Positions 20,551-54,300 of a DNA stretch of 64,000 nucleotides are shown piece after piece. The stretch's first letter is position 1; each line of letters opens with the position of its first letter. Both the position numbers and the translations under genes were made by a program. The notes beneath the pieces were generated by a model. That model was not told the DNA's origin. It did not search any database and saw only the letters and a list, made by a program, of their open reading frames with translations. The stretch lies in assembly GCA_963971285.1 (NCBI GenBank), contig OZ020262.1, forward strand, positions 11,511,308-11,575,307, written 5' to 3'. The stretch comes from Astropecten irregularis. Taxonomy: Eukaryota; Echinodermata; Asteroidea; Paxillosida; Astropectinidae.

Positions 20551-21324
20551 TTAATCTGTGGGATGTGACGGTAGCTCTCCCCCATCGTGGATGAGGGATG
20601 TGGTCGTTGTCATGGTAACGGGCAGATCAAAGGGTGTCTGTGATAGTGTGGTGCCGGTCTTGTCTCCCGTCTCTTCAGCTGTGTTTGTCTCTGGGAGCGT
20701 GTTGGGTTGTATGACTATCTCGATCATGTGATTCCCACCTTCCAGGGCCAGCGTGGTCACCTCGACGGTCGGCAGGGCCACTTTGGCCGTGTCTAGTCCA
20801 TCTTGACCGGAGTTGATGTCGATGACCGCCGGTGGTGATTCCTCATCACTGCCCACCTGAATCACAGTCTGGGTAACGAAGGTGGGATCCTGGGCCTCCA
20901 CGGGTTGGTCGATTGGTTTGGCCGGTTCAGACAGTTTGACCAGCTCCGCTGGTTTGACCTGTTCGGCCAGTTTGGCCGGTTCTGCTGGCTTGACCTGTTC
21001 AGTTGGCTTGACCTGTTCGGCCAATTTGGCCGGTCCTGCTGGCTTGACCTGTTCGATTGGTTTGACTGGTTCGGCCAGTTTGGCTGATTCTGCTGGCTTG
21101 ACCTGTCCGGTTGGCTTGACCTGTTCGGCCAGTTTGGCCGGTTCTGCTGGCTTGACCTGTTCAGTTGGCTTGACCAGTTCGGCTGGTTTGACCGGTTCGG
21201 CCAGTTTAGCCAGTTCGACCAGTTTAGCCGGTTCAGTAGGTTTGGTGGTAGGGGGCATCTCCGCGGTCAGCTGGGGCTTCGACTCTGGCGTAGGGGTCAT
21301 CACGGTGTCACATGTCTCCTCCAC
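20551..21324 (-). CDS. Large C-terminal exon with Lys/Pro hexapeptide repeats
   Basis: This is an open frame of 257 codons plus TAA, entered by acceptor atcttttag in phase 0; an in-frame TAG directly precedes it. After VEETCDTVMTPTPE it has about 19 tandem hexapeptides of the form A/T-E-Q/P-V/A-K-P/L (18-bp units, roughly 21250-20900), with an 18-residue higher order. An acidic, Thr-rich tail follows, ending LPSHPTD. The low-complexity repeat resembles proline/lysine-rich spacer regions; no domain is recognised. It is assigned to the RhoGEF by strand, position and phase only, and could belong to a separate small gene. AATAAA signals follow at 20541, 20449 and 20395. Confidence 0.55.
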   Translation of the reverse strand: MEETCDTVMTPTPESKPQLTAEMPPTTKPTEPAKLVELAKLAEPVKPAELVKPTEQVKPAEPAKLAEQVKPTGQVKPAESAKLAEPVKPIEQVKPAGPAKLAEQVKPTEQVKPAEPAKLAEQVKPAELVKLSEPAKPIDQPVEAQDPTFVTQTVIQVGSDEESPPAVIDINSGQDGLDTAKVALPTVEVTTLALEGGNHMIEIVIQPNTLPETNTAEETGDKTGTTLSQTPFDLPVTMTTTTSLIHDGGELPSHPTD

Positions 21325-24300: not shown

Positions 24301-27300
24301 GGATAATGGCTCCAGGTAGCCGCCCGGTACCCAGCCTTGTAGGCCGGTATCCGGGCGACTGACCAGCCACCAGCCTTCTTTACCGACCTTCTGAACGTTG
24401 ACGATGTCGCCGACTTTGACAGCCATCTCGCCCTCCTCAACGACGTTGTACTCCGCGAGGACCACGTACTGATTGACGGTGACAGGCTGAAAGGAACCAT
24501 AGCGACCCATGATTAGTTGAGGGTCAAAGGTCATAGGCTATTAAACAGGGGATCATTCTCTATACAAAATATTTTAGCACAAACAATGATAGACAGGTTG
24601 AGTTTTATAACAATACAGATGTATTTAACTTCATATGAGTTTGGATTACAGTTAACCTTTAACGCCTCAGGTAAGGCCTTGTGTGCAACACTGGGTGGGT
24701 GTAGTCTAGTGACTCCATATCCACAAACTCTCACCTGTGGTGATGGGGCTTCTCTCCGGTCCTCCAGTGTGTCGTCATCCGACTCGCTGAACTCACCGCT
24801 ACCCCAGCCTTCTTCATTATCATCCTCCTCGCATTCCAGGGACTGCTCGCTGGCCAGCGAGGGGTTAGCACTCCCATAGCCCGTCGACGAGGTATCGCTG
24901 GCCGTGGGCGAAGGAAGGGGTCCTCCATTTGAGGTGGAGTTTTCACTCGCTGGGCTGCTTGAGATAAAGAAACAAGATTCAGAAACTTTCACAACCAACT
25001 CTTTTGTCGAGACAAAGTGTTCCTTATGACCAATAACAAACTTTCAATAAAGAAAATAATATATGCCAGCTGATTCTTACCTGTTTTCCGAGTTGGTTGT
25101 TTTTTGGAACATTTTACCTGTGGAAGTAAAAAAAAAAAAAAATTAGAACAGAAAAATTTATATGATACAATGACAAGCAAACAAATTGTTGATCTTATAA
25201 AGCCCGGTTCACAATTAGCCACAGTGATTGCCACTGGGAACCAGCCGTGGTGAGAAGTGATCTCGACGTTCCGGCCAGTGTTCTCTTATCATCCTCAGGA
25301 GAGTGTGTGCCCTGAAGCAAGAAGTCCTTGAGTTTGCATAAAAGAATCCGGATGCGATGGAGCGTGGAGTTGGGATTCTGGGTGAGTGTATAAGGTCCGG
25401 TTCACACTTGATTGCCACAGGGGACAAGCCGTACCTGAAGTCAAATGTCACACTGTGTTGGAATTTGCAGGAAATATCAATTGATCCTGTGAGTTGAGAT
25501 GAGGTTCTTACCTGCAACCTCCAGTTGTTGGCTCTGCAGAAGGGCCTGTCTGGTGGCTTTCACCCACGACGTCTTCTCACTCTCAGTAGGAGCCTGGAGA
25601 CAGAACAAGAGAGAAAGAGAGACAAGAGGTTTCATCAAAATGACATTCTGCCTTCAAAGAATCAAACACGCATTTACAATAATAAAAAGCATTTATCAGA
25701 CATTATATATCTGTAGGACAATTGAAGGAGTCTAATATGGTAGACAGTACGAGAGAAAAGATGGCCGAGATGGAAGAGCAAAACTAAATTGATGTGAGAC
25801 GTTGCCGAGATGTTGCTGATAAACCTAGTAAACCTAGGTTGGAAATAGGTACAATTTCAGTTTGCATTTGAACTGGTGAAGAGAGGAATTACGAATGTTG
25901 TGAGGTTGTGAGTTTCAGCATCTAGGTCCAGCAACAGAGAATGCCTTGTCACCTGTATATTTGAATGTGTGGTGTATTCTAAGTCATGTCTTGAGCGGAG
26001 GCCACTTCTGTTGGGCATGCTAAGATCCAGTGTCTCAAGCAACATATATCACAGGACAGGGATTCGTCGATCAACCGTACCTGGAATGTGTAGACGTCTA
26101 CCCTTCCACCAGACCACATCTCAAACTTCCTCTTGTCACCCTTGACGTGCTCCGTCAGTCCGATCCCGGCGGTCTGTCACATAAAGATCATGAAATACAG
26201 TAAGCACACATTTAAGACTGGGGCCAATTTCACGGCGCTGCTTAGCACAAAAATTTGCTAAGCATGACATTTCTGTCTTAATAAAAACAGGATTAACAGC
26301 CAAATTTCCATGTGTTGTGTATCGCTTGTGATTGTTCTTTGGCTTTTGTTCACGGACCATGAAAATCAAATGAAATTTTTAACGGTGGTTTGTTTTATTG
26401 GGCAAGACATTTTTGTGCTTAGCAATTTTTTGTGCTTAGCAGCGCCATGAAATTGGCCCCAGTAGTGGTGGAAGGAGTTTTATTTCCCTGGTAACCCTCA
26501 AGAAGAGTCACACAACATCAACTAACTATTTTCACCCTCCTGAGGACGGCCAGAGTACACTGGCCGGAATGTCGAGACTTTTCTCACCGGTTCTTTTCAG
26601 AACCACTTACACAAAAGAGATGTTTACATGGTGTCTCCGCAAACTCACTTTGTAACTATTTTCTATCATTCCTGCCAACCCTCACATCAACCCTTACCTT
26701 TAGCGAGCTCTTGAAGCCGTAGCATGTCTTCTCCTTGATGTCGCCGCGCTTCTTGCAGAACAGCACCATCCGCTCGTACAAGAAGACATGCCGCTGCATC
26801 TTGCGCTGCCGGATGTCGTTCAGGTTGCGCTTCTTGTGGTCCACCCACATGTAGAGGGCGCCCTGCATCAGGAGCTTGCCCAGATCCGACAGCTTACCCT
26901 AGGAAGGAGAAAAGTTGAGCCACATGACAGAAATCACAATAAGGGCATAGGATTGAGCACCCTCTAGTGTTAAAAATGGAAAGAGGAAGGATATGGTCCA
27001 GCACACCTTCCTCTGAATGTCAACTGGAGACAATGGTAATTGGTTAGAGGCACAACCTCCTCTCCATGCATCTTACCTTAAGACCTGGTGGTGAGGAGAG
27101 TGGACAGGGAACACTATAGAGGTACCTTTGCCCTAGAGAAAGAATCTGGTTTTGTAATGTTTCTGAAAGGGTCCAAGTAGCACAGTCCCCTGATGGAGCC
27201 AGCTGGACACGGATCTCCTGGGATAACTATTTAGATGTCTAGTTGTCTACCCTACCACCAGACAGAATCTGGTTATGTAACGTCTCTGGAGGGGTCCAAG

Positions 27301-30300
27301 AAGCTGTCCCCTGATGGGGCAAGCTGGACATGGAACTCCTGGGATGACTATGGACGTCTACTCTGCCACCAGAAAGAATCTGGTTATGTTATGTCTCCAG
27401 GAAGTGCCTGAATAGCACCATCGTCTGCCGAAGTCTGCTGGTCACGGACCTCCTGGGATGACTGGAAGATGGCTGGCTTGGCTGGACACTCTCCTCCAGA
27501 GAGCTGGTGGATTGCGAAACACCTGGATCACCACTCTGCCCTGGGGAGGAGAAGCCCTAATCACTAAACCCTCAGGGAAGCAATGCCTGGTCTGAGCTCG
27601 AATTCCTTTGGGGTGACCTTCCAGGACACAGCTAGGCTTCTCTTCATGTCACCACCACCTGTGGAGGACAAAGGCTTGTCTGCATCTTACCATTACCCTA
27701 AGTTAACCCAGAATGCCAGAGGACTTACCTCGAACCCTGTTATTGCCACTTGATGCATGGTGTCGTTGACGTACTTGATGACAGTCAGCATACAGTCCAG
27801 GGCGGTCTTCAGATCCTCGGCACCGGGCTCCAGGGAAGAGTACTTCAACATTTCCTGCGTAGGTCAGAAATCAGAAACAATGACTCGGGTTTCCTTAATG
27901 GCTGACAGAATCTGTACCTAGTGGGTGCAGTGGAGCACTGGGATGCCAACCTAGATTCTTAGTTTCCATTAAAAAATGTTGTCTAAGATTCTTTCTTTGT
28001 TCAGAGAAGAAAACTTGCCCGAGTCCCTTGAAGCTCTACTCCTGGAAGTGTTTGAGTTTGAGGAACAAGGAATCCAGGTACTGGTACTGCATTTTGAAGG
28101 TCTCTGGTTCAAATCCTAGTTCCCTCTTATTGCCTTGGCTCAAACTTCTTTGCCCAAAAGTACTTCGATGAGATCAAATCACGAGTCTCTTCAGGCTCTA
28201 CTCCTGGAAAGATGAGGTTGAGGAACAAGGAATCCAGCACTTACCCTCAGGAGCAGCTGGTACTTGGTGATTCTCTGGACCGGCTTCAGCAAGTACGCAC
28301 TCAACGGCAGCTTGTGACCCAGTAATCTTTGGCACTCCTGCGACAAAAAATGAAATTTTAATCAATAAAAACATGACTTAAGGAAAGCAAGAGTCCTAAT
28401 GCTCTAAACTCCAGAAGGTAAGCTGAATTCATACCTGGAAGAATGGATTGTCGTTGCCGCACTCTCTCCTGAGGATCTCTGACCGTGGCTTGTTCTGACA
28501 GTAGGTGCTGTATAAACTATCCAACTCATCTTTCTGCAGATGTGAATCAAACGTAAAAAGACAGGCAAGTGAAAATTGGTGACACATTGGTTGTTTTTCC
28601 ACAAATGCAACTTTATAGAAACACGAACTTTCCACATCAGGGTGATATTTAGGATATCTTACTCATGGAGGTGTTATGACAAAAATGTGATGATTACAGC
28701 AATCAAGTTCCATCAAAACTCACCCTTTTTACAAAGCACTTTCCGATCAACGTTGGTGTGTTCATGTAGCTCTCCAGTTCAACCAGGAATGTTCTGAAAA
28801 AGAGACAATATGAAATGTTCAGGATATTAACTGTGGGCATTAAAATCATAAACATTCGAAACAGTGTGCTATAAAGGTCATCTTCGGGAGAATGCCTGAT
28901 TCAACAGCTGGGAGTGGTTCTTTAAAGGAACCACTGATTCTTCTCAGAACATCCTCGTCAAAGAGGGTCTCTTCAGAGTTGCAGCAAATCTCCATCCCAG
29001 ATTGTTTGATGCTTACCTGCTGTGGAACTGATAGATCTCATTCCAGTTGGAAAAGAGGACATCCTGATGTCCCTGCAGAGCATCCGGGATGAAGGGCATG
29101 AGATCAGGGTTGTCCATCTCCTGAATGTAGCCCGTCAACACGGCGTGGAGCTCATTGACGTACAGCTTTTCCGTCTCTATTAACTCCTTCATCACATGTC
29201 TGGTGGACGATAATAATAATAATGATAACTTTTCTAAATTGCATATTAGGGAGACGGGTTAGCATCTGAAAGTGAACATTTGGGAGACATTGTTTAATAA
29301 GGAGACTTAATAAGAGCTTTTAACACTGCTAAAACGCCCCGATGGAATGTACCTTCTCTTCGCCGAGAGTGAGTTGAGGTCGCCGTTCTCCGTGTTGATG
29401 ACGACTCCGATATCAGGACTGTCTCCTCGTAGGACCTCTATCCTTTTATCCGTCTGCCAATGAAACAAATCAAAATTAACAAAGACATTGTTAGTCATCG
29501 AATATTAATAGAGAAATCATCCTTCACCAAAATTGTAAAAGAAACAGCAACCCAAAAAAATGATAATGAGGCTAAAATCTATTATTTTGGAGATGAAACC
29601 ACAAATTGTGAAACCAGGTCGCGATCATTGTGATTTGCTTCTTCGACCACTTATTTTTTGTTTCATTTCTAAACAACACTGTGCTCTTTCGATAGTTTAA
29701 CTTTGCAGTTGATCTCGCTCCGTTCAAAAGTATTTAGGACCAAATTCTGGAATTTTTTTTTTTTTTTAATATTGTGGAGTGAAAGAGGACGAGCGGTTGA
29801 TTTCACGAAGCCCTGCGATTGATCGTAACTCGAGTTACAAAGGATAACCCATCGTAAGGGACCTATCCCACGTAGGGCTTCAATGCTTCCAATGTCCTAC
29901 GATTGATAGTAAGTTACGAAGAGTTTGGTGAAATCAACCCCAGTGGATTGGTCGACTGCTCAACGGGAGAAACAAAGCAATGGAATGCTCAGGCCAGGAC
30001 ATTAGGGAGCTTTAGATTTTCACGTTGACTACGTCGACTGATATGTGATTGCATCATGCCGAGTCTTTGCACATGCGTCACGTCGTCACCAACGTTGTCT
30101 GAGTGAGTTGAGAATGCACAAAGTATGGTTTTGAGGTTCAGAACCACGTTGTGGTCGACGTGAACGAGGTCCACGTTCACACCAATCTTAAGCTCCCTAA
30201 TGCATCATGTGCACTCTCTGCGATGTCAGACCCAAGAGGCCTGCATTGTCTGGCCCCTCATGTCCCTCCTCATTACATAGGTGTCATGTGCCCAGCGTCT

Positions 30301-33300
30301 ACTTCTGAAAATAGCCATCGGCCGAGGACGGCGGTTTAATTAATGGTTTCCTGTTGATTAGCGAGGGTTTTCAGTTGACGATGACGATGTGGTCCCACTT
30401 CCAATATCTGACCATAACATACATGTACATGAAGTCCCTGTCTATTAGTCATGTACAATGCACTTACTGAATTCTACTCGAGTTTACTAAGCACAAATCT
30501 TAGGCAATTGAAAAAAAAATGAAATTTAGGAAAAGACCCTATGATTATAGCTTTATTTATTTATTTCTTGTTTACCCTGGGGTTACCTCTCAGTGAGACA
30601 CTGTTTTCCAGAGGTGCCCAGCAATGTACAGTGCTGAATTACAAAGGACGCAGCTACAATGTGATCGAGTTGCTGGAATTCATGGGTACACTTGGCTGCC
30701 AGCACACTTCAACCCATATATGATCACAGAGCACCGCTTGAGTTTAAAAGAAATTTTTGTGGAGGGAGGAAAACCGGAGAACCAGGAGAAAAGCCCTCGT
30801 AGCATAGGAGAGAACCAACACACAACTCTACTCACATATATGACCCAAGCCAGGATCGAACCCGGGCCACATTGGTAAGAGGCGAGTGCCTGACGCACTT
30901 GCCACCTATGCCCCCCTTTTAAGATACCGGGTAATTGAAATTTTGATGATCGTAACAGTTCTGTTTATGAGGGGGAACTGGCTTGAAATAAAATTTTATT
31001 TGACTTCAAACATGATTCCAATCAATTTCCAATAATTAGTGCTAGATAACAATAACCACAGAATAGTAACCATGGGAGCATTTTCCAATCAACACCGCCC
31101 TCTTGTGGCAAACAGTGAAACACAGTCTACATCCAGCTCTTCAAGAGCCGCCAGCAAAACCATTACCCGATTTGATCTTGGAATTTTTAATTTTTAAAAA
31201 TGTTTCTAGGCATGTGGTTAATATACAATCATAACGTGACGATCTTATTTTCCACATTTCATAAGCGAGGGAAATCTCAAATTATCAATGTGGAAACCTC
31301 CTCAACTCCCCGAGGATTATCCTAGCCTACGATGCTATTTTTAAATACAGTGGCCATGAATGACCACACACAGGGAGGCATTTGTACTCCAGGGTGGCAA
31401 GAGCCTATGAGTGGCAAACTATATGGCCAGATCCAGACTAGCGGCTATGGCTGTTGCTATGGGTAACCTGTCAGCACTGATGTTATGCTATGCATACCAA
31501 CATGCTTCAGCCATAGCCATAGCCGGTGATCCATACAGCTGGATTCAAGGTTCAACGTCTACAAGATCTTGAGTCTGACACACGAGACTATTAACAGCCA
31601 ATGCTCCTGATATTATAAGTTTTACCGGTCATTTTCGGCCGAAAATTTTCATTTACCAAAAATGACCATGAAAACCTATGATATTATCCCATTTATCAGC
31701 CCTCCACATTTCAATATTGCACTATTATTTGCACAAACTGTGACAGAAAAACTGTTTTTCATACAAAATCATGGCAAACTTTCACTTTCCCTTGTTTTAT
31801 TTTGCTCCGATTTAATTTTAGCATCCAGCATAAAGAGTTTTGATTAGCAAAACACTGACAACCTCAAAACAGGATTTTCTTTTTGTTTCGTCGTGTATGA
31901 GACTGCCACACAAAATGGATGGTTTTTATTCTATTTGCTGGTGGTAATACATCATATCTAATAAAAACTGACAATTCTCCAGAGAAGCTGGTCAATGTTT
32001 GCTCCATCAAACAAACGGACCCAGCATTAAATACGGAGAAAGTTGAAAACAGACAAAAATATTCCTTGGAAGAGAAAAAAAGCCTAGTTGGTGTGCTCTG
32101 ACTATTCTCAAACCTGGGTGTATGTTCTAGAAATGCTCGACGTGGAAATGAGAGATTTCCAGCATGTCCAGCAAGTTGTTTTTCGGTAGGTTAGCAAGGT
32201 CAGTGACATAGTTCTATATGTGAGGTACATATGTAGCGACTAGAAATTGGTGACAAGTGTCACAAATCCAAAAACGTGACTTTGTGACCGATGAAATGAG
32301 CTTGTTGTAAAGAGCTTTCAAGTCAGTAAAACCAAATTTCCATAGCAACCATGAGCTTCCTTCATTAAGAAAGATCTATTAATGCGGCAATATAAACCTA
32401 ATCCACAGTAAAAAAAAAAATGAAAATGAAAATGTATTTTCAAACACAATACTTGAATTTAACTAAATACATAATTAGTTCTCATTATCATTCAGAACTA
32501 CTTTTGTCTAGTTTGCATTGTGGTTTCCACAAAGATTTAAACAATTACAAAAAATACAGAGCATTGTGGAAGATAATCCTCTCTTAGATACTGAATTACT
32601 TCAATAAGCCTCTAAGTTAAAATTCAAATAGAATTTGTTTCAATGTTGACGTATAAAAAAACGTTACATTAAAAAGAAAACGGTTATATCAAAAAGGTGA
32701 TATCATAAAAAATGATGGATATATCAAAAAGTAGAAAATAAACCCAAACAACTCTTTATCATGCAGGAGTTATATGCTGTTTCATGCGGCAACAGACTTC
32801 GTCGAACAACCCACTGGATTTAGAAGGGCAAAGGTGCTATTTCTGACCAGACTCCTACATGCAAGGAACACACAGACAAAACAAGAAAAAGAAAGAAGAA
32901 GAAAACAAAGGAAAAAGAAGAGCCCACCATGAGACAAAGTAGGAAAAAACACCCTACTGGCAATGGAACAGCACAGGAGTGAGTTTGCTGATGATAGATG
33001 AGATTACAACAAGTTTACCTACACCCTCTGATCTCAAGTACATGTATCATGTTTCATGCAATTTCTTAGAATGCCCCAAAAGACACCTGCTATAAAATGG
33101 AGTGAACAGGTGAATTGTGAAAAATACCCGTATAGTAGAGTTAGAGAGTAAAACATCTGAACTTGGATAAACTCTGTATCCCGTGCAATGACCTTAAGAT
33201 GTGGCCATGAAGTCAGGTGACTTCTAGGAAGGTCAGGTGATCTTGGGAATAAAAATATCGTAGTATTTCGGGGGAATACAGTACAAAAAAATACAATAAA

Positions 33301-36300
33301 TGTCTGATTAAAAATGCCTTTTACATATGAATACATTAAAATATTTTTAGATGACATTTTGTTTTTCTGTTTCTTTCTTCATTTTTTTTTTGGCCTTCGA
33401 GAAACGGAGAACCTGCCAAGATCGAAACGTCAGGCCTTCCTAACTCCAAGCATTTTATGAATTTCAGGTCATTATTTTGGCAGATGACCAGTTTGCACCA
33501 GTTAATTACTTTATTAATTTTTTTTAAACAGTATGCAGAAAGAAAGGCATATCTGAAGCAAGCAATGAGGAAGATACGTTTATTGGAGGGTGGGGCCACA
33601 AATGGTTAAGTTTGAACCTTTCAAAAACCCATCACAAACAGACTGTAAAGACCCAAGGGACCATAATATCATATACCGGTATGTTTGGGTGGGATCGGTT
33701 GGATATTGGTGGACTTGGAGATGGGATTCAGTGGATATTGGTGGACTTGGAGATGGGATTCAGTGGATATTGGTGGACTTGGAGATGGGATGCAGTGGAT
33801 ATTGGTGGACTTGGAGATGGGATTCAGTGGATATTGGTGGACTTGGAGATGGGATTCAGTGGATATTGGTGGACTTGGAGAGATGGGATTCAGTGGATAT
33901 TGGTGGACTTGGAGATGGGATTCAGTGGATATTGGTGGACTTGGAGATGGGATTCAGTGGATATTGGTGGGCTTGGAGATGGGATTCAGTGGATACTGGT
34001 GGGCTTGGAGATGGGATTCAGTGGATATTGGTGGACTAGGAGATGGGATGCAGTGGATATTGGTGGACTTGGAGAGATGGGATGCAGTGGATATTGGTGG
34101 ACTTGGAGATGGGATTCAGTGGATATTGGTGGACTTGGAGATGGAATTTAGTGGATATTGGTAGAATTGGTTGGAATCTGGTGGATTTCCAGTGGGCTTT
34201 AGTGGATTGGGTTGAAATCTGAAGAAACCGGAACCAAGGAAGAGTCAAAACAATAATGCAGGCAAAAACAATCAATAACTGGGACTAATTGCAAACCTGA
34301 TGTGGCATGGGTACATAGAACTTGTGAGATGGAAACGAGGCAACCTCCAATTCGAATCAATCAAACAAACGAACAAAAAAGACAAATAAATACAGTCAAA
34401 CAAAATGGATTAAATATACAATGAATGACAAAATAATGCAGAATATGGTGCTGTGATGACATCCACACATCGGGACTATTAAATCATACTGCAATGTATA
34501 CACCAGGAAATCCTGACAGCAGATATCGTGGAAAGAAAGCGAAACTCGCTCTATTTTTTGCAGTCAACACAAGAAAACAGATCAATGACAGAATTGCTAG
34601 GAACAAAAACAGTTTCTAGAAAGTTAATGAAATGCACAGTGTGCATGGTTTAAAGGTACAAAACATTGATTGGTAAAGGTCACAGGACTGCACTGCACTC
34701 AAACTGTCTGATCAAACATGTAACATGAAATAATAAACCTGTGAAAATTTGAGCTCAATTGGACATAGATCTGAGTCACGAGAAAATAGCGAAAACACGA
34801 CTCAATTTTTCTGATAAAACATGAAGAATAGTTTACTTTATGTTTGTTCCAAAAATCTTTCGGACGAACGATCTTTGGAAAAAGACACTAAATCTTGATT
34901 AGCTTGAAAAACCCAGCATCTGATGAACCAAGATTTCCCATGGTGACTGTTTGCACTGTTTACGAACTGTTGAGTCCATTTTCAAACTCAATAATTTTTA
35001 TTTTTGAGGCCTTGCAAATCCTATATATGCTTCTTTTAAGGCAGATTGCTTGGTGAATGCACGATGTACTTCTTCTTCTTCTAGCTACTGGCCTTTTGAA
35101 TCCTTTAGAACTGCAAAAATGTATCTTCACAAAGAACAAATTCTTGCTTGGTTAAAAATTTCCCTAGCTGACGCTGTACTACAATAGAACAAATATTGCG
35201 GCTATTTTGAGCTCTCTTATAACATGCTTAGCACCAACATAACATACGAGTCCACGAGCTGTCAAAAACAATGTACTTGTTATTTACTCAGCCCTAAATG
35301 CAACACATTTTCGCACAGAGACTTCCTCAACCAGCCAAAGTCCAACATTCCAATGGTACACTCCTCTAATGCAAACACTTGAATGTCAAGTTCAGTATTA
35401 AGCAAGCCACAAATGATGTCGTCACAAAAAGGATACGTTATGTATATGACAAAAAAATTGAATATGGATACTGCAGCGCTCCAATTTCATGAAAAAAAAA
35501 CACTGGACAGCAGGTCTAGTACATGTAACTGAAGAATTTTACTTAGACCTGGGGCCGATTTCATAAAACTTACGACGCGTCGCAGAGTTAAGACCCATCC
35601 TTTCTCTATGGACTCACTGCATAGATGCGACTCTGCGATCATTGCTATCAAATTTGATATGAGATGGCTACTTAACGATCGATTCTCCATTAAACGATGG
35701 ATTTGGGCTTTAGCGATGACCGTAAAGCGTTAGCGAAATCAGCCCCTGAACCTTTTCACTAGACCTGTGGCATGCATGTACAGTACATAGGAAAACTGTA
35801 ATTTTATGCAATGTTTTGTCAAAAATCATCAATTTAGGAACCATTTTATATGTGCAAGGAGAAGAAAATCACTAGACAGCCGGACTGAACAGTACACACT
35901 TTACTAGACCGACACTGAAATCACTAGACAGCCGGACAAGTGCAGTACACACTTTTCTAGACCGACACTGAAATCACTAGACTCGGTCCACTGTCTGGTG
36001 GCTATTTCGAGCCCTGTACAGTAGAAAACTTGGTTCAATCTCGTTAAATAATGGCCGATGTGCATCATATTGCCACAGCCAGGCCACACTAACAAGGAAG
36101 TACCGAAACCCAACATAGCAACAAGTCATTCGGTATTCTGCCACACTGACACTCTATCCACAGCATCATGCCACATATCACTCGATATGTGCAGATTCAC
36201 CTTCTAAATATAAAAATGTGTCCTGACCTATTTACGTGATTCCAACCGTTCAAACCATGCCGTTAATCGCACAAATCTGGTGAAATATCATTCCTAGATC

Positions 36301-39300
36301 CTACTAGGATCGAAACGCGCCGGGCCCTCCTTACTCCAAGCATACACAAAATTATTCCCTTTAAAAGACAAGAATCTGGTGAAAAATTATTCCTAATTTA
36401 TAAAATATAATTTCACAATCACTGAGCAAATTTGAGTGCAGGTTACGACTCCAACAAATGAATAGGAGATGAAAACATGTACCGATGTAAATAACGAAAC
36501 AAATTCCACTACAACAGAGTGAGTATGTGCTTAATTATCGACCGCAGATACAAATTAGACTCACTTGCTCGGCAAACTCAGACGGATTTTCCCTGGACTC
36601 TTGTGACCCGTACTTTCTCCACGACAGCTTGCGTATCATGTTTAGATCGGTACCCACCATGACTGACTGCCAGGACTAGATTCGGACCTACTACAGACTC
36701 CCCACAACCCACGGCTGAGTATTAACATGACAGGACGATGTTCTAAGTGTTGTCGGAGGTGCGTGCAGTTCAGGACTCCGCAGAGATTTTGTTTTTAAGC
36801 TGCTTTCATTTCCCCTGTGATGATCCGAATCACTCGCCTAGATTCTCAAAAAACAGGGCGACCCCTCGGTGACCTGTTTCTATGGAACGGGGCTCCGCTC
36901 GGCGGCTTCTCTGATTGGTCGGAGGTCTGACCTTCTAGCATTGTGCATAATCAACGATTTCCTTTCCTCTCTGTTAATTAGTCGACTTGCATTCCAAAGG
37001 AGCGATCTGATTGGCTGATTGGTGACCTCAATAGACATATAATCTAATTGCTATTGCTCACCTTGTGACACAGTATTATAGGAATACTGTACGGACAAGT
37101 GTCTACATTTCTGTACAAATAACAGCCACAAGTTTACAGTAGAAAAGCATACACAGTGACAGTGTATGATAATTGCTAATAATTACCCACCAAAATGGAC
37201 AGAATTTAGCACTGTGTTGTTTCTATTTGAAATGTAAATGTTGAAACTTTAGTTAAAAAAATCACACAAAATGTTTACTACTTTACTTTGAGTGTAATTA
37301 CAGTGGAACACCACTATAACGAACACCGTTATACCATGGAGCTATTAAACTGTTTAATAGCTCCATGGCTATACCGAAAGTTTGGCGATAGCGAACATAA
37401 TAATAATAAGCATTTATATTTAGCGGTATCTATCTAGAAAACTATTCCAAAGCGCTGGAGAGGGAAAATAATTGATACAAAGAAATGATACAGAAAATCA
37501 TCCTTGGCTTCCAATTTTTGTATAAGATACATGCCGAATCTTGTTCTTACATGTAAATTCACTATAATGAACGACAACTATCGCGGACAATATCTGAGCA
37601 TCCCGCCGTGTTCGTTATACATGTTCATGTAGCTGTACTAAACACTGTACTAAACATCAATTCCTTTTACAGCCACAAATTGACAAAAGTTTTCAAAAAA
37701 ATAATTGAAAGTTTTTATGGCTTTCCCATAAAAAAAATCCTAGGGGCAAGTTGGGCCACTCCATGCACTGAATGTAGGTACATTTTGAGAAGGTGAGAAC
37801 TTCATGATTTGTATTATGAAGTGGGAAGGAGAAGGAGTCATCAACATTGATAAAATATACAGAATACGATTTTTACAAATCTACAGGAAAAGTACTATTT
37901 TCACGATGCGAAAATCAGTGGTCCTCAAATTTATATTTTAGTGCCTCAAAAAAAGAAAGGAAGATTTTGGTTCTTTATAAAGGGAGAAAAAGGCGAAAAA
38001 AAAACTTTCTTTGACAAAAGCGCCCTCTTGTGACTTGGTTCGAAGATTCTTGCATGCTCTTCGACAGCCATGAAATATTTTGAAATATTTCAAAACCAAA
38101 ATGTCGATGCCAGAAGTAACAGAAACCGGATGTGAACGGGAGAACTAGTTAATGCTTATGGACCCGGGCTGAAGTGGTCTGAAATTCTATCCGAGTTCAA
38201 GTGATTTACTGTCCCTTTAAACAGTGGCCACGAAGTTGGATCTTGGCCAGCTCATTTCCCGTTAATGCTTTCATCACACACTTTCCCAAAATTCCCCTAA
38301 AAAAACTCTGGCAGAGTTTTTTACGACCCCAAAACAAGAAAGTGGTAACCTTCGTGGAAATAGCGAGAAAACAAATATCTGTCATTGGCTGTGTGGCATA
38401 TATTGTTTAAAATCCGAAAATGTTGCTAGACTCGTAAAAATCGATCCTGCAATTAACAACAGAATGATACATGCTACAAATTTGCTTGGGTGTCAACATC
38501 CATATTTGATTCAAAACCTGAAATACATGTATTTCAACCGTTTTTTCAACCGAATTTCAGCTTTATTTTTAAGAAATTATGAATTATGAAAATACAATGA
38601 TGATGAAAGTGAACACACAAAAAATGAAATTCAGAGGAATAAATATGACTAATCTTTCAAGCAAAGATGAGAAAATAAAACTGTAAATGATGAATTTTGA
38701 ATCAAAAGGAGTGAAGAGAGAGGTATAATGTTGAGCAGCTGGAAAAAGCATACATGGATAAAGATTGGATGAATTTGAGCAGGGTCCAATTTCATGGAAT
38801 CCGTTACCATTAGAAAGAATTCTTCGCTTACGGTAGCAGAATTGTTTGGTTACAGTTAGGGTATTTCTTGCTAATGGTAAACAAGGAATTTGTGCAGGAT
38901 GCATACGACAGCCCGTTAGCAGAAAATGATCACGATTACTCTAGAAATTCTTCGCTAACCGAGAGTCTTGCTTACAGATGCCATGAAATAGATTTCATGC
39001 GTAGCAGTGCCCGTAAGCTCAAAAATAGGCCGTGACGGATTCCATGAAATTGGCCCAGATGCTATTGCCGCGGCAACGGTTTCACCGGTACTCACCTTGG
39101 TATTGTAACCTTTGACCTTCTTGTTCTTTGGCTTGCGTGTTTCATTGGGCGACCCGTTGGCTGCGGACATCAGCGACAGCCCGGGGGAGCGTGACCTCGG
39201 CGGGGTGGGCACCGGAGTCGCCGGGACAATTTGAACCGGCCGGTCGCACTTGGCGATGACCTTCTGAAGAGACTCCTGCCGCTTCTCAAACATCATCTTG

Positions 39301-42300
39301 ACGTCCTCCATCTTGGTGACGGCCTCGGTGACGATAGCCTGCGTGACGGACCAATCAGAAGCGAGCGTTAATGGTGGCTGACCAATTGGAAATGACAATG
39401 CTCTACGGTTTAATAAGAATAATGACTACTGATTAACATGCAAATTAGGTTTGCCCTTCACCGACGTGGATGAGCACTGTATACTAAGTGCTTGTGAGAG
39501 CACGCAAAAAAATCACATGCTGGCTCCACGTCGGTGAAAGGCAAGCCTAATTTGCATGTTACATATCTCCCGACCAAAATCATTCAATATTCATGAATAC
39601 TAATTACTTACGAACCAATGCCTGAGACTCAACATTCCTGTAAACCAATCAGAAATGCTGTCACTTGATTAAAATTTAAATCTCGACTAATCAAATCTGA
39701 CGTTACTTTCCAAACTGACCAAGCTGAAATTGTTAGACATCGTGTGGCACATGGGAGCTCTGTGTCATCAATGCCAGCGATTGATGCCAGCGAATCAAAA
39801 CACCAGCAAATCAAAACAAGCTGAAGTAGCACTGGGATTTGAAATTCTTGGAACCAAAAGCATCATCATGACCACAGAAAAGCAATTTAAATCTCTCACA
39901 TGCTTTCCAAAAATCCTTCCCAGTGGCCTCTAACTTTGACTCTAAGACCCACTGAGAGCCAATGTGAAATCTAAGTCCTGTTTAGTTAGTAATAAATGAC
40001 TATACATGGATATTTGTATGTTTGTCCCAACATATACATACATGTACATAAATCATTCAAAACTTTGCCATGTACTAGCCACGGGACTGCATTTTTAACA
40101 TTCTACCTTGGCTGGGTGTCAAATGTTTTGGGATTTATATCGGCCTGCAGGTACGTTCATTAATTTGTCATGGTAACGGCCAAGAACACCAGTTTGAGTG
40201 ACTTTGATCGATCCATAGATTACAGGACATGTAACTGAATGAACTATGATTGTGATCAGATACAGGTTGCCATTTTGCCAAACATTATTTTCTTTTTCTC
40301 TGCAGGATTGTTAACAAAAAAACTGACAAATTGCTCAAATTTATTTGATCTTTTAAAAACCACATCCCTGAAACAGAAACTAAAAATAACAAGGTAAATT
40401 TGGAATGCATGCACTCTCAAAGGCAAGTCTAGTTTATCATAAGACGTGCAATGGAGCTTTTGCAGAGGATTTGTGGCAATTTGGGAGTCCAGTCCCGGCA
40501 TTCTAGTTTGTCAAAGTTCACTAATATAAATCTGAGTGAGCTTTAAAAAAAAATGTCCTAATGGGAAAATGGCCCAAAGTGTCCAGCAATAAATAATTTT
40601 TTTTACACAGGATGCTTTTAGAACCAAGGAATAATTATGCCAATAAAAAAAATAATAATAAAACATGCCTTAATATGGTTTAACAGGTTAATATACAACC
40701 AATCTACATGCCATGAAAACATGTCAGTATAATGCATAAGATAAAAAAAAAAAAATAATAATAATAATTCAACCATTTTGTAGCTGCTGGCCGAGATGTA
40801 AATATTAAGCTTACTCATGCCAGTTAGCCCAAGGGGGTGCTTAAACCAGGATTTGGTGGAGGGGAAGGGGGTAGGGTGGGAGTCTACTGAGGGGGAAGAG
40901 GGGGAGGAGGGGAGGGCCAGGGGGAAAGGGTGGGTCTGGAGAATTGAGGGATAACATGCTCCCCAGACCAGTAAAATAGGGGTTCAGGGTACATGTACAT
41001 GTATGTAGAGACAAGATATCCCCGGGATTGGGGGAAAAAATCCAAAAAATTACACCACTATTTACAATTGGCAAATTCTTCATTCTTAAAAACTCTACTT
41101 TCTCCCTAAAATAAAATTGATTTACATTTCTTTCTTTGTCAATAGACTTTCTTAACAAAATATTCTGTCTTGAGTATCTTTCACTTAAATTTGCAAGAAC
41201 ACTGCACAGAGCCCGTCTTTTTCTATAACTCTGGCCATCAAAAATAACACACCAAAAATAAAAATACAAAAACATTAAAAAAAACTTCCAGGGAAGTCCC
41301 AACAGGAAGGAATACTTCATAAGATCCCCAAACTGTGCTGGAAGATTAGAACAGGGTCGGAAACCAGGCCTTCCACCGTGAAACAAGAGGGGAACATTAA
41401 AGGAGGTTTTGAGGGGTGTGGCTTGAGGATGGCGGGGGGGGGGGGCAGAGGTTTTACTTCACGTACAAGCCAAAAAGGTCATGATATGTCAGGATATATG
41501 GCTTAACATAGGTCCACCATCACAGATTTAGAGAGCAGAGAAATTTGCGGAACATGATTTAGAGACAATTTCTTCGCTTTTCTGAAAGTCCCACACTGTT
41601 GTTGCAAACGCCACCCGCATCAACCAGAGTCAACTCGGACGTGGAAAATGCCTGAGAAGGATACTGGCCTTACATTTTGGATCCCGGCAGGATCTTTCTC
41701 AAAGGCTCAAAGTCCTTTAAAGCTTTTCAGGAAAGAGATTCTGCTGGGATTGAAACGTTAGACTTTCCTAAAAACTCTTAGCTCAAAACGTTCACACAAA
41801 ATACTTGTTTGATTTTGGAGTCTGTTGTATTGCAGATGAACAAAAACAATAAGGTTTCTCCTAATTTGTCTTCGAAAATGAAGTATATCGGGGGTGTGAT
41901 TAGCTTTTCAGGAAAAATCCTGAAAGTTATAAAAAATATCCTAAAAAAAAATAACTCTAAATTTAGTCAGTTACCTTTGTGGTTATTTGATAAAAAAAAA
42001 TTCTGAAAAATAGTGTAAAATTGGGCTAAAAACACAAAATCGGGCTGAAAATTGATAAAACTGCACAAGTTTTGGTCACAAAAAATCCTGAAATCAGGAA
42101 AAATCCTGATAAATGACACCCGTGGTATATTTTAGGGATTTTGCAGGGTGTATATAATATTACTTGTGAACAATTTGAAAATGAAAACCACTTTTAATCC
42201 GACTGTATTCTCCCAACTCAATCAAGTTTAAATCAGTTAGACTCTACATATAAAACATATAATTCCAATCCCATTCTGCCATCACAAAAGCCAAATTCTC

Positions 42301-45300: not shown

Positions 45301-48300
45301 TGAAAACCATGAAACATGTACCCAGTTTAAAATGCAGGAATTTCAGCGAGAACTTCACCAGAAAATTGAATTAATGGTTACACCTTTATATGACACCTGC
45401 TACAAACATTCATGATATATAGCGCCCTCTAAAGTCAGCAAACCACACCTCAAACTGAATTATTTGCTTCATACCACAAAATGCATGTTTTTATTAATAA
45501 GAGCATTCAGGTAAATCAATTTGAGTAAATGATTTTGATTTTGGCCTACAAACCTCAAAAGCAGAATCCTGAAAAAGGGGACACAACAAACAAGGCAAAT
45601 TGTGTCAACAACAACAACAACAACAAACAACAACATCTACACGTATCATGCTGGGAATAATAAACAAATTTAACCAAACAAAAATCACAGGAATTATAAA
45701 ATGCAGAATGTTTTCAAAAGTAAACAGTCATATCACATGATCATTGAGGAAAGGATTTTTTTTCTCAAAAATATGTTACCATGGTTATAGATAATTCATA
45801 AATATTCATAAATATTCATAAAACAGCACAATAATGGATAAGTTGTGGAGAAGTTATGATTGGGACTGGATGAAACCTTTTAGAGATTTTGAATTTTTTT
45901 TTTTTCGCTGTGCAGTGTGCACCAAGAATGATTTGAAGACAATAACATAATTATGTACAACACGGATGCAGCAGTGTGCTTGTATTGTGTGAATAACTCT
46001 TCTGGACAAATTCAAGATTGCTTTGAAAATCCTGAAAGAACCATAAACTGTATTAACTCAACATTTCAACCCTTTCCAGTGCTCATCTTCATTAAAGGTA
46101 TAATACATGATTGGTAAAGGTGACAGAACAGCACTTAATAAATTTTGTCTGATCCAGCATGTTCATGAAATAACACACCTTTGAAAATTTGAGTCACGAG
46201 AAAACGGCAAAAACCCGACTCAATTTGTTCTCATACATGTAAAACATAAAGAATGGTTTTGATCTCACCCCGAGATCAAAACTGTTTTCGGTCTTTGTTT
46301 GACTAATTTCTGAATAAATACACCATTTCAGGTGGAAAAATTTCAACGGTATGTTTCTACCAGCACCATCTTCATACCCTAAAAAAACCGGGAGCATTTC
46401 TGTTTGGGTATATTACCGATCCTGTACTGTACCTTTAAAAGAAGCACTCAATGTGAAAGCACCCCAAAATCAAACGAAATCAGCAACCTTCCCCAATAAA
46501 ACCCCCAAATACAACAAGGAATCACGCCTACCTTGCTCTCGGATGTGAGTATATCGGAGAACATGGCCCGAAACTCCTGGGGATCGCTGAGCTTGAGGTC
46601 CCGGGCCCCTTGCAGGCAGTTCCGGATGGACTGTAAGTACTGTTCCGCGCCTTCTTTGGATTGGGCCATGTCCATCTCCTGAGATGCCAGGAGTTTCATG
46701 CCTTCAGAGCACCACGTCTGCGCCTGGGAAAAAATCAAGAAAAAAAATTTTCATTTCGGCTCGGAACTTTTGCTCACAGCACCAAAGTCCAGCAATGTGC
46801 TTCGGTATCCCTATGTCACATTCATTGGACTGAACCAGGTTAGGCCATCATGCACTGGTTTGAGTTTAGTTGCCTGGGTTCTATGATACTTTGTTGTACA
46901 AAATACCAAACTGTGCAGTATCCCTATGGCACATTCTTTACACTTTGACCAAATTGGACCTTTCGTTTTCGTTTTCGTTGACATTTTATAGTACCTGGGC
47001 TCAGTAGTCTCTTGACCTTCGACAATACTATAGACCGATCCAACGGCACGATATACTGTCCACCATTACTGCAGTGTCCCCGCCTGCCTTTTGTCTGGCA
47101 ACAAAAAAATTTACGCTCCGCCGCACTCTATAAATGCAGGGTGTATTTCTGCTAATCATGGGACATAAACCCTACAGTATAGAGTGCGGTGGAGCGTAAA
47201 TTCCTTTGTTGCAGAACAAAAGGCGGGCGGGGACACTACAGTAATTGCTGGTGTTTCCTAACTTCATGGTCGCGCCGTCAGATCGGTGTGTAAGAGACTT
47301 TTAGCAGATACTGTAGTAATGAGGCCAGATCTGATTTATTGGCTTTGAATAAGCGTAGACACCAGCTTCACAATAGCCCTAGCCCTATCTGTAGCCCTTC
47401 ATTCCAATCTAGACTAAGAATACGATGGCTCTCTAGCTATCACAGCTGTATAGCAGACTCACTTTATCAATTCTCTCATGGAGTTCCAAGGAGCGTTGCA
47501 GCGCCACGTTCCGGGCGTCCAGTCGCTGGGTTAGGTCCTCCATGATCCTCTTCAGCTCAAGGCACTTCGGCCGGATGCTGTCCTCTCCGTACTCCTGCTC
47601 CTCCATCAGCTCCAGGCCTATGGCGTGGACCTTCTGACCGTTCTCCAAGGAATTCTGCACAGCGCAAAGACACGACATTAGTCAAGGGAAAAAAAGGTGA
47701 TCAATGTAGTGCGATGTCGTGTTGCTGGTAGCTGCTGGAATTGCTATCCTTCATCAGACAACTGAAGAACTGCATGCTGTGGTGTCCGTTCCTTATCTGT
47801 ATCTACCGCGATGAATAAGAAACTAGTTCTTTAAGACCCCACGACAATTCAAGATGGTGTCATGTTTAGCGACACCATCTTGTCTAGGCCCAAAATCCAA
47901 ATTTTTATTCTTAACAAAAATGAATATCTTGTCAGTCCTAACAGAAGGCTATACATGTATGTTTTCAATTTTGATTTCTGACCAGAAACTAGGGCAATCC
48001 AGTTTGGACAACACAACTTCATGTGCAGAATAAAACTGAATAATTGTAAAAACTAGGATTAAAAACTAACAAACAAACAAGCAAACTAAAATACAAAATC
48101 AAAATTGAAAGTCGGTCGTCTGACAAGGGAGTAGACCTACCTGGCTGTCTGCGGTGAATTCGTTGTGAATCTTCATGAGGCTCTGGACTAGCAGCATTGA
48201 GCTTCCCTGATCCGTCATTCCAGCCAACTTCTCCGACAAATTCTCCAGTAGAACCATGGCCTGTTGATTAATTGAACGAGCAAATAAAACAAGACTCAGA

Positions 48301-51300
48301 ACCAGGATCAAGTGAAATATTTTCTGGGGATTTTCCTCAACTGCCATCTTTTCAAATGTTTATAAAAAAAATCACATATCACGTCACAATTCTATGACAG
48401 AACTCAAATTTTGTGAAAAAAAAAACTGGACAGCAGGTCTAGTAATCGAAGCATTTAAAAAACATGTACTAGACCTGAACTTTTTTTTACAAGACCTGTG
48501 CAGCTGTGGCATTCATGTACTGTAGGATAACGCTACCTCCATGATTGTTTGCAATATTTTGTCAAAAATCATCAATTTTAATAGGCACCATTTTAATTGT
48601 ACACAAAATCACTAGACAGCCAGACTAGTGCAGTACACTCCTTACTAGACCAACACTGATAAAATCACAAGATTCGGTCCAAGGTCTAGTGGATATTTCG
48701 ACCCCTGTATGAGGGTTTCTCGCTTACTTGGCTACGCGTAAAAATTTGGCGCTGACCCTCTGGACTAATATCTATTAGGGCCTACATGTATGTACTGTTA
48801 TATTGTATTTAACCCACAATGGCACATTTAAGGTGCTATAGTTCTGTATTTGACAGTTTGCTGCAAATTACGCCAGCTCAGAAGAACTACATGTACCTGG
48901 GCTGGATGACGAGGACGTAAAGAAGCTCCAACCTCGGAGCAGCAACTTACCTCTCTGAAGTCATCCTCAAACCTCCTGAGTTTCAGACATTGCACTAGTT
49001 TGACTTCATGGTCCACCCACATTGCTTCAAACCTTCCCTCGGTCTCTTCCATCTGCACCAGCAGCCTGAGTGAGGAGAGGACAGAAAGGATATGAACTCA
49101 ACTTGCATCGCCTCGTTGTCATCTTGCGATAGGACGAAGAGTGCATCAAACTCAGCGTATTTACGATCCGGCAAAATAAGGGCCCTTTTTTTTCAACAAT
49201 TGACGATCACCGAAATTGCGCGTAACAATGTGAGAGTTATCAAATGGTAAATTTATTGGTCTACCATCCAAATTTTGGGGGAAAATTTTGGAAATGGCTT
49301 GTCTGAGAGTTTGTATAATAAATAATGGGCATATCAGTTTGATTATTAATTATTCTTAATTAAGGAAATTAAGTAAAAATTAAGTTTGTCACTTCGTAAA
49401 ATCAAAAATTATATGATTCTTGAAAAAAAAAACAGAAGAGATTACATGGTGTCACCACAAACCTATCTTCCTTTTCGAAACAATTTTGTTCCTCTGCCAA
49501 TCAACAAATGCAATAACCTCAAGTATCTCTATCTATATCCAGTTTGTTAACCATGTACCTTAATTTTCCTAATGTTGCTTTAGATGTTTTTTCCTAAATG
49601 TTGATTATTATTCTGCATTTTGTTGTATTTGTAAACTTTTGTAAGCCACCAAAGCAAATTTCCTGAATTGGAGGAATGAAAAGAATGAATGAATGAATGA
49701 ATTTTACCTCTCAATTCCGCAAAGCGTAGCCACCTTGTGCGGGTTCTGGTCAGGGCTCTCATCCAGTGGCCGTCGCATACAGCGCAGCAGCGTCTCGCCG
49801 TACTTCATGGCGCTCTGCAGGTCATCCTTGATGTCCATGCGCTTCTTACGGTGTTCCATCAGCAGCGTGTTGGCCGACTCAACGTCATTGGGCAGCTCCG
49901 TCTGGACAAACTCGTCCGTCAGGACCTGGACGGCCGTGGAACGCTCCCGGCAGTTGTTGGCAAACCTCTCGATTGCCTGGAAGGGGAATAAGAAGTTCGA
50001 GTATTAAAAGAGGCACATACTTGAATCCCAAACATTGACAAATAAAAATACATTTAACTATACATAACAACACACATTTCCACAAACTAAAGCCCAATTT
50101 ATGCAAGTGAATTGCAATACGAATACAACCCAAGAAAACTAGCTCTGTATCTTTATCAAAGGCTAAATTACAAGAGAACAAGAACATGCTATCTTTTCAT
50201 TTAGTCTTTAACCCTTCTGGTGTTTTGGAGGATTTCGGAGGATTCAGGATATAATGTCATTCTCAAGTGAGGACCACTTGAGGAGTTGCAAGGATTCAGG
50301 ATAAACGCATTTTTTGAGGTATGGCCACCGAAGGATTTTGAAGGATTCAGGATTCAGGGTCCTCTCATTTTGAGTATAAGTGAGATCACTGGAGGACTGT
50401 GGAGGATTCAGGATGAACGCAGTTTTTAAAGTGTGACCATTGGAGGATTGTGGAGGATTCAGGATGGTACTCAGTAAAATGCCCCTAGGGGGTTAGGGTT
50501 AAGAAGGATCACACTAGGATCGAAATGCATAAGCCCTCCTACATGTACATGCAACTCCAAGCATTTTATAAATTTCAGGTCATTCTTTTGGTTGATGAGC
50601 AGTTTGCAGCAGTTTATTACTTGTAATCAATACAAATTTTACTGCAAGTTATTTGAGATGACAAAATTAGTATGAGAAATAAATATTATTCATTTTTTCA
50701 TACGTGTCTTAGATTAGTAGAAATTCTAAGCTTTCGATTGAAATATCGCGTGCCAAGTTCCACCAACAAATGGTTCTATGCATACAAAAACAACCAATAT
50801 ATCTTTTCAGCTGACAAATTAAATCTAAATTAATCTTGACATGAAGCATCGTATCAAGTTGTTTTTCTCTCCTACTTTCTTCGTACTGATGTGTGTTTCG
50901 ATCTCAGTATAAATGTAGAAATAGGACGAAGCTGGTGCCGATGAAAAAAGGCACGAGTGTAAAAAACACGTCAGTCAGTTGACATGGCTTCCAAATTAAT
51001 CTGGACACCTCGCAACATCAACAAAATTATAGGCAAATCCCTAAGACGACGACAACTCTACTTTAGCCCGAGCAGGGGGGCGGGGGGTAAAGGTAGGGGG
51101 AAGGGGGAGGGAGGTTGGGGCGGTAAGTTGCCGTTAGGTTGTGCTGGTGACTGAGTCTCTAGCCGGTAACCGGCACTGTTCTAAGTGATATATCCTGTGG
51201 TCTAGACAAGTTAAAGGCCACCTTGCAGGGCACCGGCTAGAATTTCCCCACGTCATATTTCAATAATAGACACATGCATGTACTGTAAATGTTTCCTGCA

Positions 51301-54300
51301 TTTTACACTGTATACATGTATGTACAATGTACGAACATGTATACGTGTTATATGTTTTTCCATTGCTGGGGCCGATTTCTCTTACATATTGCAATCATCG
51401 CTAAAGCCAAAATCCATCGCTAAACGGAAAATCGCAAATTGCTGTTCAGCAATGGATTTCGCAAAACATTTATTTATAGTGGAATTCGCCCCTGGTATTA
51501 AAATTGACCATTGAACCTGTTGCCGTAAACATCAGATGCACGGGTACAATTTGGGATGCACATACATTGTGCACAAGAAGAAAACTTGCTACGACAATAT
51601 CACCAGCACATTACAGCAGTGTGACTGACAGTGTAAACACATTTTCAGTCTTTCTGCTTATAAAATTGCATCAGACAGATATCATATGGGGCCAAATTTC
51701 ATAAAACTGTTAAGCACACAAATTTGCTAAGCATGACATTTCTGTCTTTTTAATAAAAACAGGGTTAACAACCACTAATGTCCACGTGTTGTGTATCACT
51801 TGTGATTGTTCTTTGGCTGTTGTTTGCTGACCATGAATATCAAATGGAATTTTCAATGGTGGTTTAATTGTTTTATTGCGCGAGACATTTTTGTGCTAAG
51901 CAAATTTTGGTGCTAAACAGTTTTATGAAATTGGCCCCTGTACACAAGTCATCTGGTAGGGCCAGTATATAACACTCTTCGACAAGCCCTATCATGCATA
52001 TCTGTTGTCAGTTTGAAAACCGTCTCTGTGTAGACCTATACATTTCATCTGTCATTATTAATTTCCAAGTGATGGGCAAGTGGGAGCCACGTTAGGTAAA
52101 AGGTAGTATCATACTTTGGTAAGAGACCAAAACAGAAATTTGTTCACAGATTTACGTATAATTTTCAGGGTATGAAGATGATGCTGGTAAAAACCTACTG
52201 TTAAAATGTTTCCGCCTGGAATGGTGTATTTATCCAGAAATTAGTAAAACAACGACCGAAAATCTTTTTGATCTTTTAAAAGATCAAAAATAAAAGAGAA
52301 AAGACTCTTTGACAAAAACCAAAGTATGATACTACCTAGGCAAGGAGGGTAGCGTTACATGCATATCTACACATAGATAATGTACATGGATGAATCATAA
52401 TTCTGTGTACTGGCAACATTTTTTTTTTAGGGGGTTGGGGAAGGGTCGTAAGGCAAGGGTCGTAAAGGGAGGGGTCGTAAGGGCAGGGATGTTGGGGAGG
52501 GGTGATCAGGGAGGGGTCGTAGGGAGGGGTCGTTAGTGGAGGGTTCTTCAGGGAGGGGTCGCAGGGGAAGGGTCGCAGGGGAGGGTCGTAGGGGAGGGGT
52601 CGTTAGGGAGAGGTACATGTACACTGTAGTCAGTGAGGGTCGTTGGTGAAGGGTTTATCAGGGAGGGGTCGTAGGGGAGGGGTCGCAGGGGAGGGGTCGT
52701 ATGGGAGGGGTCATAGGGGAGGGGTCCGGGAGTGGAGAGATGCTTGATTCTGATCCTACAGACCACACACTATGGTCATTCAGGGATGAGATCCCCTTGA
52801 CGACGGCGGCTCATCGGAAAACGAAGGCCGATTCATTTTTGCAGTTGCACACCACGTTATTTATTAAGGCAAACCATTTAACTGACTAAATACGGTGCCA
52901 ACAATTGAACTTTATAATATCAAATTTCCTATCAAAGTTTAAAAATAGATTCAAACTGAATTTTAATGAGGTGCGTAACCTTGGTGATGACGTCATAGTG
53001 ACCAAAGGCTACATTCTGTCATAATCCTTTGTAATCATAGACTGCTTTGGCATCCCATTAACTGGGAACCAAACAATCAACGGTATCAGTAACCAGAGCT
53101 CAAAGTTCTGCTTACCACAGAATTTGGCGGTAATCATTCTCATTCTAAGCTGACTGACTTAGCATCAAATTTCTATGCTAGCAAAGTATTACAAGAAATC
53201 CTTAGTTACACGAACTACGACAGTCGAACGTTCATAATCGAAAATTCCTTGCTAATCCATAAAACAGGATCTCGTAAGCACATAATTTCCTGATTCCGTA
53301 AGCGCCGATTCTACCCTGGCATGTGTTGTGTTTGACTATATCCAACACGTAGTTGACGATAGAACTTCCCCCATCCTGCCAAGCTATTTTTAAAACAACC
53401 TATAAAATTGATGGTCATTATTCATGGGGTTATTAGCGCCATATTGGACTTCCTCATCAATTTCCTGCCAATCACCTGTTATCATCTCGTAATCTCATTA
53501 TCTTGTAATCTTGTTTTTTAAACAGTACACGGGAGATGCTGTAATCTAAGCCTAACTCCCAAGCATGTCGTCACTACACACAGGGTCAGAATAAGCGAGT
53601 TTAATGCTCAATCTTTTACCAGCGCGACATTGACCCTGTCCGCCCGGGTTGTACCAAGCTGGTTAATTTTAAACCAACTTCCAATCTTAAATGAAAAGCA
53701 GAAATCACTTTGGAGCATAGATACACGGCATTACGCAGAGTACATTTGAGTCTTAAGGCCTTTTCACACGACGCTAAAAAAAACCTCAACCATTGAGAAA
53801 TTCTCTAACAGTTGCGAAATCTTACAAAAGTGTCATCGTGTGAAAGGACACCAATGCTTGAGAGTGAGTGACCCACGTCCCTGGTGAATCCTTGAGAGAT
53901 TTTGACCGAGGTCCAGACCTACGACAAAATTTCTCAAGGGACCCTTGTGAATTAGTGCTTTGCACTGCGCATGCTTGTGTTTTCTATGTTTTTCAAATCC
54001 AAGAAAAAAACATTTCAACTGGGGTTTTCCTTCGACGCTGCTATCCCGATCCGAAATTGACCCCCAACCTCATGTCCGACTGAAATCTGCCCGGACAAGC
54101 GTATTAACAAAAACTCACCATTCTGTCTTCTATCCAGGAGGTAAGGTCGAAGCATATAGTTCCGTCAAACTCCTTTGTCAGTTGCGTGGGATGTATGGCG
54201 GCATTGAGATCCTTTGGCGAGTCGAGCAGGAGAATCTAGAAACAGTCCCATTCGAGAAATTATTTTAGACGGATAAAAACCATCCACAACAAGAAAAACA

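Follow-up and report, generated by a model that had tools for sequence, protein, structure and literature searches.

We propose that a site within a 9,642-bp intron of the minus-strand DBS/MCF2L gene in the window (the whole 64,000-nucleotide stretch of DNA that was analyzed, on contig C27) is an internal promoter with an alternative first exon, giving a short RhoGEF without the SEC14 domain and spectrin repeats; judging from the sequence, we put the probability of this reading at roughly 0.7. In the proposed mechanism, NF-Y-type CCAAT boxes at 36911-37022 would drive transcription, transcripts would start at about 36700-36850, translation would begin at the ATG at 36660, and the exon would be spliced from 36565 to 29453. 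The predicted product, by its frame and domains, consists of 32 new residues followed by the shared linker and the DH, PH, and SH3 domains, without SEC14 and spectrin repeats, and would probably have a higher exchange activity and be controlled separately at the level of transcription. A preliminary description of this DNA had already claimed such a promoter and first exon. As a reading of the anatomy (CCAAT cluster, codons coding-like in one frame, donor, and matching phase), this remains the best one; the promoter itself stays unproven, given the lack of a TATAWA or YY1 word, the ordinary CpG density, and the two further ATGs that lie within the putative 5' UTR.

By its sequence, the minus-strand gene in the window is a DBS/MCF2L RhoGEF gene, with the following exons.

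62826 to 62940, minus strand: exon, start of the SEC14 domain, needing a preceding exon that ends in phase 1 (joined-exon match)
58188 to 58278, minus strand: exon, SEC14 domain (joined-exon match)
55454 to 55567, minus strand: exon, SEC14 domain (joined-exon match)
54119 to 54235, minus strand: exon, end of the SEC14 domain (joined SEC14 exons, CRAL_TRIO_2, E 5e-10)
49708 to 49976, minus strand: exon, start of the spectrin region (weak Pfam match, E 0.11, below the cut-off)
47463 to 47654, minus strand: exon, spectrin repeat region (weak Pfam match, E 0.031, below the cut-off)
46532 to 46723, minus strand: exon, DBS-like spectrin repeat (PF23289, E 1.2e-10)
39096 to 39338, minus strand: last long-form-specific exon, end of the spectrin region, donor in phase 0
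29353 to 29453, minus strand: first shared exon (TDKRIEVLRGDSPD...), phase-0 acceptor at 29453
29017 to 29199, minus strand: exon, start of the RhoGEF (DH) domain
28724 to 28793, minus strand: exon, DH domain
28435 to 28533, minus strand: exon, DH domain
28245 to 28337, minus strand: exon, DH domain
27729 to 27854, minus strand: exon, end of the DH domain
26698 to 26898, minus strand: exon, first part of the PH domain
26081 to 26173, minus strand: exon, PH domain
25512 to 25593, minus strand: exon, end of the PH domain
24735 to 24949, minus strand: exon, acidic linker between PH and SH3, joining in frame
24325 to 24465, minus strand: SH3 domain (Pfam SH3_1, E 7.3e-9), exon start at 24468, in-frame join

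The predicted short form matched Pfam RhoGEF (6.1e-39) and PH (5.9e-30), and its best solved relative was Dbs (1kz7, E 1.4e-109, residues 59-375 of the predicted short form), the next protein being Trio (4.4e-58). The Dbs-matched stretch starts only at residue 59, so that the new peptide is separated from the matched module by 26 residues of shared linker. The DBS-like spectrin family had two matches in the 475.7-Mb genome searched, both in this gene, and the gene thus appears to be single copy. The SEC14 domain was found when five exons (62940-49708) were joined, the CRAL_TRIO_2 match (E 5e-10) lying within the first four. Searched by single pieces, it was missed: the genome search with the family gave five matches, none of them in this gene, and 10 upstream frames gave none, the domain being split over four exons. 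One of the exons in the SEC14 region was located by short word patterns and the others by eye in open frames. The long-form model is partial between 49708 and 47654, and two exons with uncertain acceptors (R1 and R3) were used only for their donors.

It is likely that the long form begins with an ATG exon at 66744-66669 (same coordinates, outside the window), the phase-1 donor of which fits the exon at 62940. This exon lies 30 kb upstream of the 36660 exon, and its peptide matches only itself in the genome. The likely long-form start is without a similar CCAAT cluster, as only two CCAAT[CG][AG] words (68519 and 66457) occur in the 9 kb upstream of 62940. At the other end, a 256-codon open frame at 20557-21324 on the minus strand, with imperfect repeats (KPAEPAKLAEQV...) and a plausible acceptor before it, may represent the final exon of the DBS gene.

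Within the intron between 39096 and 29453, which is in phase 0 at both ends, the proposed promoter and exon comprise the following features.

37007 to 37022, minus strand: two CCAAT boxes as a tandem, CCAATCAGCCAATCAG (word search)
36911 to 36918, minus strand: CCAAT box, CCAATCAG (word search)
36661 to 36910, minus strand: putative 5' UTR and transcription start zone, the start site being placed by inference, without a TATAWA or YY1 word
36676 to 36678, minus strand: in-frame stop TAG 5' of the ATG (sequence)
36565 to 36660, minus strand: proposed alternative first coding exon of 32 codons, ending in phase 0 (sequence and codon log-odds)
36559 to 36564, minus strand: splice donor GTGAGT (CAA/GTGAGT), phase 0 (PWM 8.23)

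The ATG (36660-36658, context GTCATGG) was read directly from the minus strand, and the 15 bases between it and the in-frame TAG are open. The 32 codons encode MVGTDLNMIRKLSWRKYGSQESRENPSEFAEQ and end at base 36565, which is followed by GTGAGT. The score of this donor is within the range of the gene, 7 of the 19 donors of the same gene scoring lower when left out of the matrix, and only three GTs on the minus strand of the intron (37061, 36564, and 36200) score at least as high. The upstream long-form exon (39338-39096) ends in AAG/GTGAGT in phase 0, and the shared exon at 29453 is preceded by ...TTCATTGGCAG, also in phase 0. When 36565 was joined to 29453, the frame was unbroken through the DH and PH domains, the acidic linker, and SH3. 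Thus, the predicted short isoform has both an initiation codon and a frame-compatible donor of its own. These results agree with the preliminary description, which had reported an ATG exon behind an in-frame stop (now ATG 36660 and TAG 36678-36676, read directly), a strong phase-0 donor (CAA/GTGAGT at 36565/36564), and an intron of 9.6 kb, and had inferred a short RhoGEF without SEC14 and spectrin regions. A second good donor-like GT is found at 37061 on the minus strand (AAG/GTGAGC), just 5' of the CCAAT boxes, but we recognized no exon that would end there.

The three minus-strand CCAAT boxes and the GC enrichment given in the same description were both recovered, each with a reservation. 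The boxes have their first bases at 37022, 37014, and 36918, which are 251-362 bases upstream of the ATG, and account for all three minus-strand copies of CCAATCAG in the 64-kb window; two plus-strand copies are present at 39351 and 39645. Two of the boxes form one 8-base tandem duplication (CCAATCAGCCAATCAG), and hence the cluster is better counted as two sites than as three. Boxes spaced 8 bases apart are too close for two NF-Y complexes to bind simultaneously. The total of five CCAATCAG copies in the window is not unusual (2.62 expected; 13 of 100 shuffles reach five). Clustering within 110 bp was rare in simulated DNA: three copies occurred in none and two copies in one of 300 strands (150 order-3 Markov sequences, both strands). 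In the real background, such a CCAATCAG cluster was present in 1 of 24 ten-kb strands, where it belonged to a satellite-like array (L026). Clusters of three of the bare word CCAAT are commoner and also occur in background regions L022 and L023, in a tandem repeat at 33773-34210, and at 31018 on the plus strand. At 33700-34170 of the same intron, a 32-base unit is repeated in tandem about 14.6 times (95% matches), and the minus strand of this array is rich in CCAAT words.

The G+C content of the stretch is 50% versus 39%, a real but modest enrichment. Its CpG density is ordinary, equally rich stretches making up 10.6% of the window and 9.1% of the background. The most CpG-rich stretch of the window overlaps tandem arrays at 1606-2292, which are built of units of about 20 bases with the palindrome TCGTACGTACGA. 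No TATAWA, YY1, Sp1, E-box, CRE, ETS, NRF1, X-box, or octamer word was found in 36560-37100, and the looser TATAAN was found twice, once 5' of the CCAAT boxes (37080) and once on the opposite strand (37043). The putative 5' UTR contains upstream ATGs at 36809 and 36728, the latter opening a frame that overlaps the proposed start at 36660. In a genome search that skipped simple repeats and very common words, the 561-bp stretch had a single match, itself; accordingly, no repeat family was detected, and a repeat-derived promoter is unlikely.

We then considered the signature of exon and promoter jointly. First-exon signatures in any phase with at least two CCAATC words in the 500 bases upstream numbered 1 of 24 in the window, namely, the 36660 exon, and 0 of 31 in the background, the 24 of the window including real exons. 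With at least one CCAATC within 500 bases upstream, the looser test gave 3 of 24 and 2 of 31 signatures, respectively. The 32 codons scored a log-odds of 0.287 per codon in the proposed frame, the two remaining frames giving -0.441 and -0.151, and thus are coding-like in one frame only. The coding model was trained on the 789 codons contained in 17 exons of the gene and the noncoding model on the sense strand of the same intron; under this codon model, left-out exons of the gene scored -0.00 to 0.87 per codon. Elsewhere in the intron, none of 3,589 open segments of 32 codons, taken with overlap, scored as high as the exon, a figure that is flattering because the noncoding model was trained on that intron. 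The fairer figure comes from the background, in which 2.1% of 6,846 open segments, possibly including real exons, were as coding-like as the exon. The 32 residues had no second match in the one genome searched, their own, and a paralogous first exon was therefore rejected.

These data bear on a different reading, in which the stretch is a regulatory element with NF-Y sites (an enhancer, or the promoter of a noncoding or antisense transcript) and the ATG, frame, and donor are coincidental. In its favor, an ATG with an open frame and a donor is by itself at chance level: 17 phase-0 signatures were counted per 240 kb of background strand, and 0.68 would be expected in an intron this long. Nevertheless, the codons are coding-like in precisely the one right frame, and both orientation and phase are right for the ATG and donor, which lie 3' of the CCAAT boxes, so that we consider a regulatory element without an exon to be unlikely. 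It is more improbable still that the long form includes the 36660 exon as a cassette, by way of an acceptor on its 5' side. The 15 open bases 5' of the ATG, the presence of AG dinucleotides, and phase 0 at both flanking junctions would permit this, but the acceptors after the TAG that keep the frame (exon starts 36675 and 36666) score only -2.0 and -1.61, against 2.41 to 13.43 for 16 of the 17 real acceptors of the gene (the other scores -4.87), and the best acceptor nearby (36687, 6.86) would read the in-frame TAG. That neither promoter nor exon is in use and everything arose by chance, as the 8-base duplication behind two of the three boxes, the modest G+C rise, the ordinary CpG, and the chance-level ATG and donor might suggest, is very improbable in view of the joint signature (1 of 24 versus 0 of 31) and the single coding-like frame.

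Several other observations were made in the window and the genome. At 4358-4753 on the minus strand lies what may be a piece of a major facilitator (MFS) transporter gene (Pfam E 1.5e-8, just over the cut-off), and Rfam gave no matches in the 64-kb window. When the genome was searched for RhoGEF domains, the highest-scoring matches were three in tandem (L001-L003, C29:1781697-1783883), each in a 929-codon open frame. In the mitochondrial COX1, all five AAA codons fall at asparagine positions, and AGA, ATA, and TGA fall at serine, isoleucine, and tryptophan positions, which corresponds to NCBI code 9, the code of echinoderms and flatworms; this reading presumes that the residues at those positions are conserved. 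Of these two groups, echinoderms are the likelier source of the gene, and amphioxus, considered at first, was rejected on account of the AAA codons. Of two further COX1 matches, one (L013, C131:32162-33484) is open under the standard code and possibly belongs to a foreign contig, and the other (L015, C25:9951047-9952018) has seven TGA codons, lies on a long contig, and is perhaps a mitochondrial insertion.

Returning to the internal promoter and alternative first exon, we compared the predicted short form with known systems. Loss of SEC14 and the spectrin repeats is stated to raise exchange activity for MCF2, MCF2L, and Kalirin in the passages available from PMC9823006. In onco-Dbl, the N-terminal 497 residues are lost and the DH-PH half is left and activated, as the excerpt of PMC5839386 has it; onco-Dbl is, however, a truncated oncogene product and does not arise from a natural start. 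The short form described here is probably a more active exchange factor than the long form, by analogy with vertebrate Dbl and Dbs, which are freed from autoinhibition by loss of SEC14 and the spectrin repeats. The constitutive activity proposed in the preliminary description is an extrapolation from vertebrate Dbl, Dbs, and Kalirin (PMC9823006). How much of the N terminus is lost matters for activity, and the predicted short form would lose all of SEC14 and the spectrin repeats.

Internal promoters are known in relatives of this gene. According to the portion of PMC3048553 used here, internal promoters of Kalirin give delta forms without SEC14 and the first four spectrin repeats and Duet transcripts without all of Kal7; Kalirin differs from the present gene in being a relative that carries two GEF modules, and promoter use was measured there for delta, not for Duet. 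In human MCF2L, of the same family, alternative promoter choice alters the polypeptide, the positions of the promoters within the gene not being stated in that excerpt (PMC10885033). For the Caenorhabditis elegans Dbl homologue cgef-1, four or more isoforms are predicted (the other paper gives three), with the last four exons (DH-PH) in common and differing N termini, a and c being the shortest and b the longest, and 2.5-kb regions upstream of cgef-1a,c and of cgef-1d were assayed as separate reporters (PMC10617605, PMC5839386). The two genes are likened by their DH-PH end and N termini, the passages seen of these papers mentioning no SH3 and stating no SEC14 or spectrin content per isoform (PMC10617605, PMC5839386). 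A point of difference comes from larval P cells, where activity was seen with the cgef-1d reporter but was not detected above background with the a,c reporter, as given in part of PMC10617605. Our literature search on MCF2L, which covered amphioxus and sea urchin, found nothing; a search on an alternative first exon in Branchiostoma gave papers that, by title and the start of the abstract, were on other subjects only. The internal promoter and second start suggested by our sequence analysis are a plausible case of an already known strategy.

It is conceivable, albeit doubtful, that braked long and unbraked short Dbl/Dbs forms made by way of an internal promoter are an ancient animal device, common to the nematode cgef-1 and the echinoderm-type gene, in which autoinhibition would be bypassed by transcription and not by signaling. 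If the exon is used, this invertebrate would make a natural counterpart of onco-Dbl from its own promoter. It could then be asked when in development promoter choice, as opposed to release from autoinhibition, sets Rho or Cdc42 activation, and whether the arrangement was inherited in worms and this lineage or arose in each independently.
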